Assembly (NCBI RefSeq): GCF_035917455.1
Contig: NZ_CP109078.1
Location: 1,054,001 to 1,118,000 of the forward strand
Reading direction: 5' to 3'
Origin: Micromonospora sp. NBC_01796
Lineage (GTDB): Bacteria > Actinomycetota > Actinomycetes > Mycobacteriales > Micromonosporaceae
DNA length: 64,000 bases
Each line of letters starts with the position of its first letter. Positions within the stretch are counted from its first letter, which is position 1. Made by a program: the position numbers and the translations under genes. Below are positions 29,463 to 33,645 of this stretch, piece by piece. Below the pieces are notes generated by a model that ran no database searches, was not told the origin of the DNA, and saw nothing but the letters and a program-made list of their open reading frames with translations.

Positions 29463-29933
29463 ATGTCATCGCCGGGTTTCCCGCACTCTTCCGAGGAGCC
29501 GGCCGAGGCCGGGCAGTTGCAGACGCTGCAACCGCTGACCAATGACCTCATCGCGGCGGTGCTCGGTGCCCGGGGCTTCTCCTTCTACACCGACGGCGAC
29601 GGTGACCTGGTCGGCAGGTGGGACGACAACCTGATCTACTTCTTCCGGCTCGGTCCGGAGGGTGAGCTGCTCCAGGTACGCACGATGGCCGCGACCACGT
29701 TCCCGATCGACCGGGTGCCCGAGCTGTACGCGTTCTGCAACTCCTGGAACCACGACCGGCTGTGGCCCAAGGCGTTCGTACACGTCAACGACGACGGCAG
29801 TGCCCGGGTCTGCGGCGAGGTGACGGCCGACCTGGCCCAGGGCGTGACCCTGCACCAGCTCGACCAGCTGATCAACTGTGGCATCTCGACCGGTTGCCAG
29901 CTCGCCGAGTCCGCCGCCGAACTGCGGCCCTGA
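29463..29933 (+). CDS. YbjN domain protein, first gene of the HSP90 operon
   Basis: 156 residues from the ATG at 29463, a few bases after GGGGGACG; the longer upstream frame is not credible. The YbjN fold is seen in FSFYTDGDGDLVGRWDDNL, VPELYAFCNSWNHDRLWPKA and ARVCGEVTADLAQGVTLHQL. YbjN domains resemble type III secretion chaperones and bind proteins, not DNA. The signature FCNSWNHDxLxPKAxVH recurs in the third gene of the operon, so the two are paralogous domains. HSP90 starts 15 bp downstream. Confidence 0.88.
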   Translation: MSSPGFPHSSEEPAEAGQLQTLQPLTNDLIAAVLGARGFSFYTDGDGDLVGRWDDNLIYFFRLGPEGELLQVRTMAATTFPIDRVPELYAFCNSWNHDRLWPKAFVHVNDDGSARVCGEVTADLAQGVTLHQLDQLINCGISTGCQLAESAAELRP

Positions 29934-29947
29934 GCGCGGGATCCACG

Positions 29948-31804
29948 ATGGAGCAGCGGTTCCGGGTCGACCTGCGCGGCATAGTCGACCTCCTCAGCCA
30001 ACATCTCTACAGCAGCCCCCGGGTCTACGCCCGCGAGCTGTTGCAGAACGCCGCCGACGCGATCACCGCCCGGCGGGCACTGGCCCCCGGCGCCGACCCG
30101 GCGCCCGAGCCGGGGCGGGTCGTGTTCGAGATCGACCCGGACGGCACGCTCCGGGTGCACGACAACGGCGTCGGGCTGACCGAGCCCGAGGTGCACACCT
30201 TCCTGGCCAGCGTCGGGCGTACCTCGAAACGCGACGAGTTGGGTTTCGCCCGGCAGGACTTCCTCGGCCAGTTCGGCATCGGCCTGCTCTCCTGCTTCAT
30301 GGTCGCCGACACCATCGAGGTGGCGTCCCGGTCGGTGACCGGCACCCCGGCGGTGCGGTGGACCGGGCACGCCGACGGGCGGTACACGGTCGTGGTCGAC
30401 GACGCGGCCCGGCCGGGGATCGGCACCACCGTGACCCTGCGCCCCCGCCCCGGCGGGACGCACTGGTTCGCCCCGGACCAGGTCGCGGACCTGGTCCGGG
30501 CGTACGGGCACCTGCTCGACGTGGAGGTGGTCCGGCACGCCCCGGACACGGACGAACTGCGGCTGACCGAGCCGCAGGCGCCGTGGGAGGTCGACCACGA
30601 AGACCCGGACGTACGCCGTGAGGCACTGCTCGACTACGGGGCACAACTGCTCGGCAGCCGCCCGATGGACGTGATCGACCTGCGGATGCCGGAGGCCGGT
30701 CTGGTCGGGGTCGGTTTTGTGCTGCCGACCGCGAACACGGTCCAGACCGGCGGGCACCGGGTCTACCTGAAGCGGATGCTGCTCACCGAGAACGCGGTCG
30801 GGCTGGTCCCGGAGTGGGCGTTCTTCGTCCGGTGCGTGGTCGACACGTCGGTGCTGCGCCCCACCGCCAGCCGGGAGGGTCTCTACGACGACGACCTGCT
30901 GTCCCAGGTGCAGGAGTCGCTCGGCGGGCAGATCCGGGACTGGCTGCTGGACCTGTCGGTGCACCACCCGGACCGGCTCGCCGCCTTCCTCCGGGTGCAC
31001 CACCTCGGGGTGAAGGCGCTCGCCGTACGCGACGACGAGATGCTGCGCCTGGTCGACGCCGGGCTGCCGTTCGAGACGAGCCGGGGCACGATGACCCTGC
31101 GGGCCTTCCGGCGGGGCGCCACCGTGCTGCGGTACGCCGAGACGGTGGACGAGTTCCGTGCCCTCGCCGCGATCGCCAGTGCCGCCGGCACTCCCCTGGT
31201 CAACGCCGGTTACGCGTACGACACCGAGATCCTGGAGCGGCTGCACCGGATCGACCGGTCGGTGACCGTACGGCGGTTGGATCCGGGTGAGCTGGCGGCC
31301 CGGTTGGAGCCGCTGCCGGCCGAGCAGGAGGCGGAACTGGCGACGTTCCTGGGTGTCGCCCGGGGCGTACTGGCCGAGTTCGGTTGTGTGCCGCTGATCC
31401 GCCAGTTCGACCCGGTCACCGTACCGGCGCTCTACGTGGTCAGCCGGCGGGCGCACCAGCAGGAGTCGGTCCACCGCAACCTGGCCCAGGCCGACGAGCT
31501 CTGGTCCGATGTGCTCTCCGCCTTCGCCGAGGTGGAGATCGAGCACCGCCCGGAGCTGGTGTTCAACTGGCGGCACCCGCTGATCCGGCGGATCTCCGCT
31601 GGCCCGCCGGGCGCCACCCTCCGCCACGGCATCGAGGCCCTGTACGGGCAGGCGCTGCTCGCCGGCCACCACCCCCTGCGCGCGGTCGACACCGCCGCCC
31701 TGAACCGGTCGTTTCTCGCGCTGCTCGACCGCGCCTTCTCCGGCCCGCCGGCCGGTACGGGCGCGGCTCCGGCAGCGGACCCGCCCCCCGAGGAGATCCC
31801 ATGA
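29948..31804 (+). CDS. HSP90 family molecular chaperone
   Basis: 618 residues from the ATG at 29948. The GHKL ATPase domain has the N box ARELLQNAADAI, the DNGVGLTEPEV box and GQFGIGLLSCFMVAD, all with their ATP-contacting Asn, Asp and Gly residues. The middle domain holds RVYLKRMLLTENAVGLVPEW and CVVDTSVLRPTASREGLYDD, close to HtpG. The C-terminal dimerisation region is poorly conserved, and the eukaryotic MEEVD tail is absent. It is the middle gene of a three-gene operon between YbjN-type proteins, which I take as its likely partners or clients. The stop overlaps an ATG that opens only 13 codons. Confidence 0.93.
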   Translation: MEQRFRVDLRGIVDLLSQHLYSSPRVYARELLQNAADAITARRALAPGADPAPEPGRVVFEIDPDGTLRVHDNGVGLTEPEVHTFLASVGRTSKRDELGFARQDFLGQFGIGLLSCFMVADTIEVASRSVTGTPAVRWTGHADGRYTVVVDDAARPGIGTTVTLRPRPGGTHWFAPDQVADLVRAYGHLLDVEVVRHAPDTDELRLTEPQAPWEVDHEDPDVRREALLDYGAQLLGSRPMDVIDLRMPEAGLVGVGFVLPTANTVQTGGHRVYLKRMLLTENAVGLVPEWAFFVRCVVDTSVLRPTASREGLYDDDLLSQVQESLGGQIRDWLLDLSVHHPDRLAAFLRVHHLGVKALAVRDDEMLRLVDAGLPFETSRGTMTLRAFRRGATVLRYAETVDEFRALAAIASAAGTPLVNAGYAYDTEILERLHRIDRSVTVRRLDPGELAARLEPLPAEQEAELATFLGVARGVLAEFGCVPLIRQFDPVTVPALYVVSRRAHQQESVHRNLAQADELWSDVLSAFAEVEIEHRPELVFNWRHPLIRRISAGPPGATLRHGIEALYGQALLAGHHPLRAVDTAALNRSFLALLDRAFSGPPAGTGAAPAADPPPEEIP

Positions 31805-31834
31805 ACACCCCTTCTCGTGCCGCTAGGACGCCGC

Positions 31835-33409
31835 GTGAGTGAGCAGGAAGAGCTGGTCGAGGCGCTGGAGGATGCGCGGGATCTGCCGGACGGCGACGGC
31901 AAGATCGCCGAGCTGGAACGGATCGTCGCGCACGCCGACGCGGCCGGGAACGTACGGCTCGGCTTCGACGCCCGGTTCGCCGTGATCGACGCGTACAACA
32001 ACCACACCGAACGGTGGCGGATGCTCCCGCCGTTCAGTTGGTGCCTGGCCGCCTTCGACCGGGACCCGTCGCTCTTCGACGACTGGGACGCGGAGATGCT
32101 CCGCTGGTACCACAAGTGGGCGATCGCGGCCCTGCGCAGCACGCCCAGGGTGGGGTTGGTGCAGACCCAGGCGGCCCTGGACGACCTGGAACGCCGGTTC
32201 AAGGCGGGCGGGCGCAGCCTCCAGGCGGTCTACAACCTGCGCTGCCGGGTCGCCGACCACCTCGGTGACGAGGCGGGGGCACGGGAGTGGCTGGCCAAGT
32301 GGCGTGCCGCCCGGCGGGACGAGAACAGCGACTGCGCGGGGTGCGACCCGTCCCGCCAGGCCGAACTGCTGGCCGGGTGGGGCGAGTGGGAAGCCGCGGT
32401 CGACACTGTCGAGCCGGTCCTCTCCGGTGCCCTCGGTTGCGCCGAACAGCCGGAGAAGGCCCTGGTCACGGTGCTGATCGCGTACCTGCGGCTGGGGCGG
32501 TACGACGAGGCGGCCCAGGCGCACGTGCGGGCGTACCGCCGGCACCGGCACGAGCGGGACGCGTTCCCGTTCCTCGCCGAGCACCTGCGGTTCTGCGCGC
32601 TGACCGGTCAGCACGAACGCGGGCTGGAGATCCTCGGCACCCACCTCGGCTGGCTGGACCGGCCGTACGACGAGTCCTCGGCGATGGAGTTCTCCGCCGC
32701 CGGGGCGCTGGTCTGCCGGCTGGCCTCGGAAGCCGGCGTCGACCGCAAGATCCAACGCCCGGAGTACGGCGAGCGCGCCGCCGCCGAACTGTCCCTCACG
32801 GCGCTCGGTGCCGACCTGGTGGCCACCGCGCAGGATCTCGCCGGCCGGTTCGACGCCCGCAACGGCTCCAGCCACCAGTCCGGGCGGATGGCCGCCTGGC
32901 TGGCCGAGCGGCCGGTCGACGTACCGGTGGTGCTGCCGCCGGACGAGCCGCCGGGCGACTGGGCGATGCCGTCCGCGCTGCCCCCGGAGGGGCGGCAGGA
33001 CGTGGTGGCGCCGCTGCGAATCGAGGGCATCGTCGCGGTGTTGCAGGAGCGCGGCGACCACTACCGGGTGGACGAGGACGGCACGGTCGGTGGGCGTTGG
33101 GGCACCGCCGTGATCCAGTTCCAGCAGATCGGCGAGCGGCAGGAGATCCTGCACGCGCGGGTGATCGCCGACCGGCGGCTGGACGCGGACCGGCTGGCCG
33201 AGGCGTACGAGTTCTGCAACTCGTGGAACCACGACCAGTTGCTGCCGAAGGCGTACGTGCACGACACCGGCGAGGGTGAGCTGATCATCGCCGGTGACGT
33301 CACCACCGACCTGGAACACGGCGTGAGCGGGCCGCAGTTGGCCGCCCTGATCAACGCCACCGTGGCGACCGGTGCGGCCTTCGCCGACGCGGTGACCGAC
33401 CTGCCCTGA
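31835..33409 (+). CDS. TPR-like protein with C-terminal YbjN domain
   Basis: 524 residues from the GTG at 31835 (TAGGACGCC upstream); an in-frame GTG at 31817 is possible. Residues about 5-330 are helical repeats with tetratricopeptide character (LVTVLIAYLRLGRYDEAAQA, HLRFCALTGQHERGLEIL) and a CAGC motif. A Pro-rich hinge (VVLPPDEPPGDWAMPSALPP) leads to a YbjN domain from about 395, with YEFCNSWNHDQLLPKAYVH matching the first gene of the operon. TPR domains are the classical HSP90 docking modules in eukaryotes, so an HSP90 co-chaperone role is attractive but untested. A strong terminator follows 15 bp after the stop. Confidence 0.85.
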   Translation: MSEQEELVEALEDARDLPDGDGKIAELERIVAHADAAGNVRLGFDARFAVIDAYNNHTERWRMLPPFSWCLAAFDRDPSLFDDWDAEMLRWYHKWAIAALRSTPRVGLVQTQAALDDLERRFKAGGRSLQAVYNLRCRVADHLGDEAGAREWLAKWRAARRDENSDCAGCDPSRQAELLAGWGEWEAAVDTVEPVLSGALGCAEQPEKALVTVLIAYLRLGRYDEAAQAHVRAYRRHRHERDAFPFLAEHLRFCALTGQHERGLEILGTHLGWLDRPYDESSAMEFSAAGALVCRLASEAGVDRKIQRPEYGERAAAELSLTALGADLVATAQDLAGRFDARNGSSHQSGRMAAWLAERPVDVPVVLPPDEPPGDWAMPSALPPEGRQDVVAPLRIEGIVAVLQERGDHYRVDEDGTVGGRWGTAVIQFQQIGERQEILHARVIADRRLDADRLAEAYEFCNSWNHDQLLPKAYVHDTGEGELIIAGDVTTDLEHGVSGPQLAALINATVATGAAFADAVTDLP

Positions 33410-33423
33410 CGCTTCCGGCTCGA

Positions 33424-33463
33424 CGAAACGGCAGTCCCCGCGCGGGGGCTGCCGTTTCGTTTT
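33424..33463 (+). terminator. Rho-independent terminator after the HSP90 operon
   Basis: An 18-bp near-perfect stem (33424-33459, one G-T pair) with a minimal loop at CGCG, followed by TTTT. It closes the YbjN-HSP90-TPR/YbjN transcript and lies 15 bp after the last stop codon. Confidence 0.88.
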
Positions 33464-33645
33464 CCGTCGTGGTGCGAGCCGTCCTCCCCGTTCCGTCCTC
33501 CCCCCGTTGACCGGCTGATTCAAGGCGCTCGCAAGGTTCCGTGCCAGGTCCGCACGCCATGGTTGGGCAACTGTTTCAGCGCTCCGGGGGGGAGAGTGGC
33601 ATGGCAGGACCCTCATCGCGGCATCCGGCCACGACGGTCGGATCT

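Follow-up and report, generated by a model that had tools for sequence, protein, structure and literature searches.

A divergent bacterial HSP90 is encoded beside a TPR-like protein in Actinomycetota and Bacillota and accompanied by YbjN domains in one clade

Eukaryotic HSP90 has co-chaperones that carry tetratricopeptide repeats (TPR), among them Hop, FKBP51/52, PP5 and CHIP. For bacteria, the accessible part of Press et al. 2013 states that no obligate Hsp90 co-chaperones have been identified (PMC3708813), and that of a 2021 paper notes that Hop, Aha1 and p23 have no evident eubacterial orthologues (PMC8082187). Bacterial HtpG was divided by Chen et al. 2006 into groups A to C, with Group C taking in Firmicutes and Actinobacteria, and S. 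coelicolor was credited with two copies, one of 615 amino acids (PMC1525184, in the text available); hsp90B and hsp90C were set aside in the analysis of Press et al. 2013 (PMC3708813, same part). Within the YbjN/AmyR family (PF10722), AmyR is described as dimeric, with a fold like that of type III chaperones (PMC5398634, available text). Here we analyse a stretch of 64,000 nucleotides from Micromonospora sp. NBC_01796 (contig NZ_CP109078.1, positions 1,054,001 to 1,118,000; hereafter the window, whose own numbering is used below), in which an HSP90 gene lies between genes for two YbjN-domain proteins, the second of them joined to a TPR-like solenoid. The conserved unit is the HSP90 gene together with the TPR gene, present in two phyla, Actinomycetota and Bacillota, and YbjN is a local addition to this wider unit.

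All three genes of the window locus lie on the plus strand. The first (29463..29933), a clade-specific accessory, encodes a YbjN-domain protein of 156 amino acids (PF10722, 88 bits against a cut-off of 22), the second (29948..31804) an HSP90 family protein of 618 amino acids, and the third (31835..33409) a TPR-like and YbjN protein of 524 amino acids, whose GTG start was picked by alignment to relatives and which matches PF10722 at residues 397-520 (60 bits). As an earlier note made from the DNA letters had proposed, the genes are closely set, with gaps of 14 and 30 base pairs, and are followed by a strong terminator-like hairpin (33422..33461, plus strand) with 18 pairs. On folding of 33410-33475 its energy is -42.1 kcal/mol (z -5.6), better than that of all 200 shuffles, and it is absent from the terminator list of a consensus scan. 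The signature FCNSWNHD.L.PKA.VH that the note read in both outer genes is indeed common to their YbjN domains, which share 41% identity across 138 residues (E 5e-34).

The window HSP90 is assigned to NCBIfam NF010683/PRK14083, "HSP90 family protein", with 756 bits against a curated cut-off of 455, and fails the HtpG equivalog NF003555 (158 bits, cut-off 371), so that on profile scores it is a divergent PRK14083-type protein and not HtpG. The GHKL ATPase residues E30, N34, D72, G76 and G112 and the middle-domain arginine R309 are kept in 57-58 of 58 aligned rows. The predicted model (predicted local distance difference test, pLDDT, 87) gives a VIA Z score of 31.2 to TRAP1 (414 residues aligned) and, over residues 6-594, of 30.9 to an HtpG model (root-mean-square deviation, rmsd, 5.2; 537 aligned), and by this prediction the protein has a complete N-terminal, middle and C-terminal HSP90 fold. 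The PRK14083 type would correspond to the group that Chen et al. 2006 and Press et al. 2013 treat as HtpG Group C or hsp90C. Within the available text of PMC1525184, "TPR" and "neighbor" have no matches, and no partner is described for hsp90C there or in the available text of PMC3708813.

Pairing of this HSP90 gene with that of a homologue of the third window protein (the partner) extends well beyond the window. In the initial genome scan the partner lay directly downstream of HSP90 at 28 of 28 loci, from Microbacteriaceae to Micromonosporaceae, and in a class sample of 394 genomes a TPR gene was next downstream on the same strand at 53 of 54 PRK14083 places. By genome, 46 of the class sample had HSP90 and 49 had the partner, with 45 carrying both, one HSP90 only, four TPR only and 344 neither (Fisher p 2.5e-53, a value overstated since the genomes share ancestry). 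In a family sample of 131 genomes, for which counts of YbjN and TPR are lower bounds from the matches listed, the partner was beside at least 116 of 123 over-cut-off HSP90s, 111 of these among the matches listed and five found on reading loci. The five came from a set of 12 HSP90s above the cut-off for which no TPR neighbour was listed: the partner is downstream at L114, L185, L186 and L188 and upstream at L187, while five others of the 12 (G789, G815, G820, G755 and G837) were left out of the reading. As a control, none of 19 canonical HtpG loci (from the window's own genome and from 18 others, each scoring above the cut-off for HtpG) had a partner homologue within 0.66-0.87 kilobases after the gene or 1.2-1.5 kilobases before it.

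The start-stop distance was exactly -4, a 4-base-pair overlap, in 52 of 111 HSP90-partner pairs, with gene starts called by a simple script, and at L187 the gene order is reversed with the 4-base-pair overlap retained. Beyond Actinomycetota, the Paenibacillus cellulosilyticus partner is a bare domain of about 350 residues that overlaps HSP90 by 4 base pairs (E 2e-62), and in Listeria two partners of this kind follow HSP90 (E 4e-54); judged by position, lmo0942, which the available text of PMC3534079 mentions only as a fragment beside fri, would be the Listeria HSP90 so paired. In a plasmid collection HSP90 stood beside a partner homologue in six of seven records, the seventh being from Actinomyces oris, and a survey of a further genus and family found the partner in 11 of 58 genomes. 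Across 101 pairs, distances among the HSP90s are correlated with those among the TPR proteins (r 0.82), and 61 of 98 splits are common to both trees, agreement to which species history contributes part. The window's own genome (8.56 Mb) has three HSP90s: besides the window copy there are a canonical HtpG, at 794 bits, and another protein of the PRK14083 type, at 828 bits. The gene for this second PRK14083 protein also precedes a TPR protein, one of 984 amino acids whose N-domain shares 46% identity with that of the window protein; a search beside this second copy gave no YbjN match, and of the four YbjN domains in the genome two are in the window locus.

Several observations on these loci stand apart from the counts. 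Two tandem partner genes follow one HSP90 at L178, L179, L185 and L195 (7800-9768), Listeria included. Two long open frames (L072 and L074) were checked as HSP90-TPR gene fusions, and neither is one. Some PRK14083 HSP90 matches (G865, G817, G847, G872, G781 and G571) contain one in-frame stop, marking either decaying genes or assembly errors. At L184 (6091-9826) an HSP90 relative with a degenerate-looking N-domain motif precedes a protein that partially matches the partner. At L095 (4025-9379, G743) a partner with intact W91 and K94 (see below) lies beside a RecG-like gene without HSP90 there, another pair being present elsewhere in G743; the HSP90-partner pair at L074 adjoins the same RecG-like gene.

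The TPR-like repeats that the earlier note saw in the third protein are borne out by its AlphaFold model (mean pLDDT 92), in which a helical-repeat solenoid common to HSP90 partners and also covered by the partner-family profile (residues 3-356; 31841..32902, plus strand) is followed by a YbjN domain (residues 389-524; 32999..33406, plus strand). The best fold match of the predicted solenoid is MalT domain III (Z 21.4, rmsd 5.3, 319 aligned), followed by APC5 (Z 20.9) and Rap proteins (Z 18.8); Foldseek on the model gave a best E of 5e-4. The tail matches E. coli YbjN 6vu7 (VIA Z 15.0, rmsd 2.1, 131 aligned). At the level of sequence profiles, no Pfam TPR model passes its cut-off on the window partner (best E 0.097), its own-genome paralogue passes TPR_12 (36.8 against 30.1), and the N-domain of the scanned partners has no Pfam or NCBIfam model over cut-off except TPR_8 in one Listeria partner (26.1 against 25.7 bits). 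The scanned partners as whole proteins match no NCBIfam family over cut-off, with Pfam TPR models weak or scattered. Their C-terminal module varies: many relatives have a longer helical array in its place, the window protein has YbjN, and the Bacillota proteins read have none. Two features of the N-domain are widely conserved. The first is a W91-x-x-K94 patch on helix 5 (32105..32116, plus strand), a candidate HSP90 contact, of which both residues also occur in the Paenibacillus partner and both Listeria partners. The second is a set of near-invariant cysteines, C167-x-x-C170 ... C202 (32333..32440, plus strand), each present in 108 of 111 HSP90-adjacent and 35 of 35 other partners (143 of 146), and in Paenibacillus and Listeria as well; judged by this conservation they are perhaps a metal site independent of HSP90.

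We favor, with a probability of roughly 0.57, the interpretation that PRK14083 HSP90 and the TPR-type protein form a two-gene chaperone unit in which the latter is a dedicated adaptor or co-chaperone, the window locus being a clade-specific version. An HSP90 of this lineage would, to judge from its residues, act as an ATP-driven chaperone, and the N-domain of about 350 residues would bind it through a surface that includes W91 and K94, leaving the variable C-terminal module to select or present cargo. At the window locus the YbjN tail would probably pair with the separate YbjN protein, because AmyR/YbjN proteins form dimers. The earlier note's appeal to TPR docking in the eukaryotic manner does not carry over, because none of the 111 partner-linked HSP90s ends in EEVD; docking would have to take place in a different way, without such a tail. 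On neighborhood evidence, that note's proposal of a dedicated bacterial HSP90/co-chaperone set is supported for HSP90 and TPR, which the actinobacterial comparison it suggested found side by side nearly always, but not for YbjN, whose place beside HSP90 is confined to one clade. Its remark that such a set had not been described agrees with the literature searched in part (most subscription journals and all bioRxiv preprints lay outside the scope), in which we found no description of the HSP90-TPR pair.

YbjN directly precedes HSP90 in at least 20 of the 131 family genomes and occurs at six of the 28 initial-scan loci, only in close Micromonosporaceae, and its flanking position is therefore not a general part of the set. 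YbjN-bearing partners form one clade (100/100 support), and HSP90s of the YbjN type form one clade among 108 (Shimodaira-Hasegawa approximate likelihood ratio test, SH-aLRT, 100); by these trees the YbjN-bearing form of both genes has a joint single origin. The two-clade pattern fits a pair that was duplicated as a unit and then gained YbjN. At L003/L158 (the same genome) and at L159 the TPR and YbjN parts of the partner are encoded by two genes. Within the YbjN clade, 21 of the loci read carry YbjN and TPR-YbjN genes and no HSP90. Since ftsK adjoins all 21 of these and also 15 of 18 distinct HSP90-bearing loci (all but L001, L168 and L169; 22 such loci include four second copies from the same genomes), the loss of HSP90 most probably took place at this very site, at least twice on the tree. 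Some of the genomes with HSP90-less YbjN loci keep a PRK14083 HSP90 elsewhere and some do not. One further ftsK-site partner (L176, 6356-7687, G868) has neither HSP90 nor a detected YbjN domain and has lost W91 and K94.

This persistence raises the possibility, which we hold tentatively and which is compatible with the other readings, that at the window locus YbjN and TPR-YbjN are the working chaperone-like or regulatory unit and HSP90 a dispensable helper. Retention of both genes beside ftsK in 21 of 21 HSP90-less loci after at least two HSP90 losses speaks for it, as does the finding below that the YbjN domains change less than the solenoid once HSP90 is gone. An Actinomyces oris plasmid (L202, 2319-7036) likewise has, in a row, a YbjN gene, a sub-threshold YbjN-like gene and a TPR partner, with no PRK14083 on the plasmid (the chromosome was not searched). 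However, within the family sample such a unit concerns a single clade, and the HSP90-TPR unit is wider than YbjN.

The HSP90-less relatives amount to a natural experiment with named candidate contact residues. Using 38 of 41 loci (three with missing YbjN pieces were dropped), we compared median distances to the HSP90-linked YbjN-type set. Beside HSP90 (n=17) the solenoid was the slowest part, with 0.30, the separate YbjN protein having 0.37 and the YbjN tail 0.417; without HSP90 (n=21) it was the fastest, with 0.735, compared with 0.505 for the separate protein and 0.555 for the tail. Across the 111 HSP90-linked partners, 62 positions reach a conservation of 80% or more. In the 17 most diverged proteins from loci without HSP90, 12 of these were lost and 50 retained, a position being counted as lost when half or fewer of the 17 kept the residue. 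The lost positions include F67, W91, K94, M118, R161 and T257, with W91, K94, M118 and T257 kept by none of the 17, and the kept positions include C167, C170, C202, D340 and R342. Overall, W and K were together present in 105 of 111 HSP90-adjacent partners, 14 of 35 others and four of 21 HSP90-less YbjN loci. The four that retain them (L135-L138) lie outside the 17, and three of them group with three proteins that have lost them, so that decay seems to follow HSP90 loss. Solenoid divergence with loss of W and K is the pattern that disuse would leave on a surface for binding HSP90, and is not proof of one.

The same data bear on the main rival, in which HSP90 is a private folding factor for one difficult solenoid, perhaps a sensor or scaffold, and has the TPR protein as its only or chief client; we consider this unlikely, slightly more so than the preceding alternative. 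HSP90 is hardly ever found without the TPR gene and the TPR gene outlives HSP90 loss, an asymmetry that also fits a client, and the solenoid changed fast after the larger HSP90 loss, as a protein weaned from its chaperone might. That W-x-x-K persists across Actinomycetota and Bacillota when the tail module is exchanged is more suggestive of an adaptor, and the two tandem partners at L178, L179, L185 and in Listeria also sit less easily with a client, but neither point is decisive.

Several further findings count against our interpretation of the TPR protein as a dedicated adaptor. An independent-pairs/sign test of the HSP90 dependence was not significant (2.5 against 0.2, with few loss events), and the group of 17 proteins was chosen after its divergence had been seen. 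Retention of W and K at four of the 21 HSP90-less YbjN loci is itself awkward, in particular at L136, a separate HSP90 loss, where the rate ratio to the YbjN tail is normal (0.70) and there is no acceleration. G793 has a partner with W and K and no PRK14083 HSP90 was found in it; conversely, six HSP90-adjacent partners are without W and K. In addition, many of the ftsK-site partners that have lost W and K come from genomes with a PRK14083 HSP90 elsewhere, and the loss extends to L176. Finally, the pairing has exceptions: two of the HSP90s read have no adjacent TPR gene (L132/G783, and L182/G754, where a weak match lies 4 kilobases on), and among the 150 family places listed for the TPR gene, 39 have no HSP90 beside it, a number that includes three second tandem copies. 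In the class sample, the HSP90 of G325 (L092, 6734-9369) has no partner homologue and precedes a 240-amino-acid protein with weak TPR matches only (TPR_8, E 6.6e-5, below cut-off).

That the genes are merely co-transcribed for reasons of expression, without cooperation of their proteins, is very improbable given pairing in two phyla, linkage kept under reversed order, a joint single origin, start-stop overlap and HSP90-dependent constraint.

For a broader form of our interpretation, the odds are about even. Bacteria would then have a second HSP90 machine, present in Actinomycetota and Bacillota, whose TPR co-chaperone is obligate, dedicated to it and from a family without a name. Docking would have arisen or would work without EEVD, in one clade the adaptor's tail would have turned into a YbjN cargo module, and Pseudomonas and Xanthomonas would perhaps have a different-looking partner. 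In Pseudomonas aeruginosa and Xanthomonas, HSP90-like ATPases that score 293 and 277 bits to PRK14083, below its cut-off, are followed by a protein of 764-774 amino acids, for which comparison with the partner-family profile gave a probability of 13% (E 0.002) with a C-x-x-C lined up. With one Micromonosporaceae locus, the row of an HSP90-like ATPase and a protein of 764-784 amino acids was seen at L199 (5893-10134), L201 (4959-9182) and L183 (6911-11130); the followers have weak TPR matches and are 63% and 33% identical to the Pseudomonas one, and on sequence likeness these loci are possibly a second HSP90-partner family. A Pseudanabaena plasmid (L197, 5222-10804) has in a row a TIR-domain gene, an 877-amino-acid HSP90-like protein, a hypothetical protein and a TPR protein that gave a weak piecewise match and a profile-comparison probability of 1%; this row might be a defence-like variant. 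For the window locus itself a defence system was considered and rejected: PADLOC matched only the N-terminal ATPase part of HSP90 (TmtA best, 1.6e-8), neither the YbjN nor the TPR-YbjN protein had a match, and no full-length defence protein was recovered. In phage records the pair occurs on one unverified faecal contig, and short entries labelled as Listeria phage match part of the partner, all probably bacterial DNA.

If the preferred interpretation is correct, the pair offers a simple two-protein system for how HSP90 gains cargo choice and bears on whether the teaming of HSP90 with TPR proteins arose more than once, and the conserved partner would belong to a neglected bacterial HSP90 lineage. 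Compared with bacterial HtpG (Hsp90A), the window HSP90 has the same GHKL ATPase residues and the same N-M-C fold (Z 30.9), but it falls in a separate NCBIfam family (158 bits against the HtpG cut-off of 371) and HtpG has no partner close by (0 of 19 loci). The pair resembles the eukaryotic HSP90-TPR co-chaperone systems in having a TPR solenoid as HSP90 partner. It differs from them in its HSP90s, which lack EEVD (0 of 111), and in its solenoid, which is larger and nearest to MalT, APC5 and Rap, with no sequence kinship shown. Finally, the YbjN domains of the window match the YbjN/AmyR family in sequence and fold, but in this locus one of the two copies is joined to a TPR-like solenoid, and an HSP90 gene lies between the genes that carry them.

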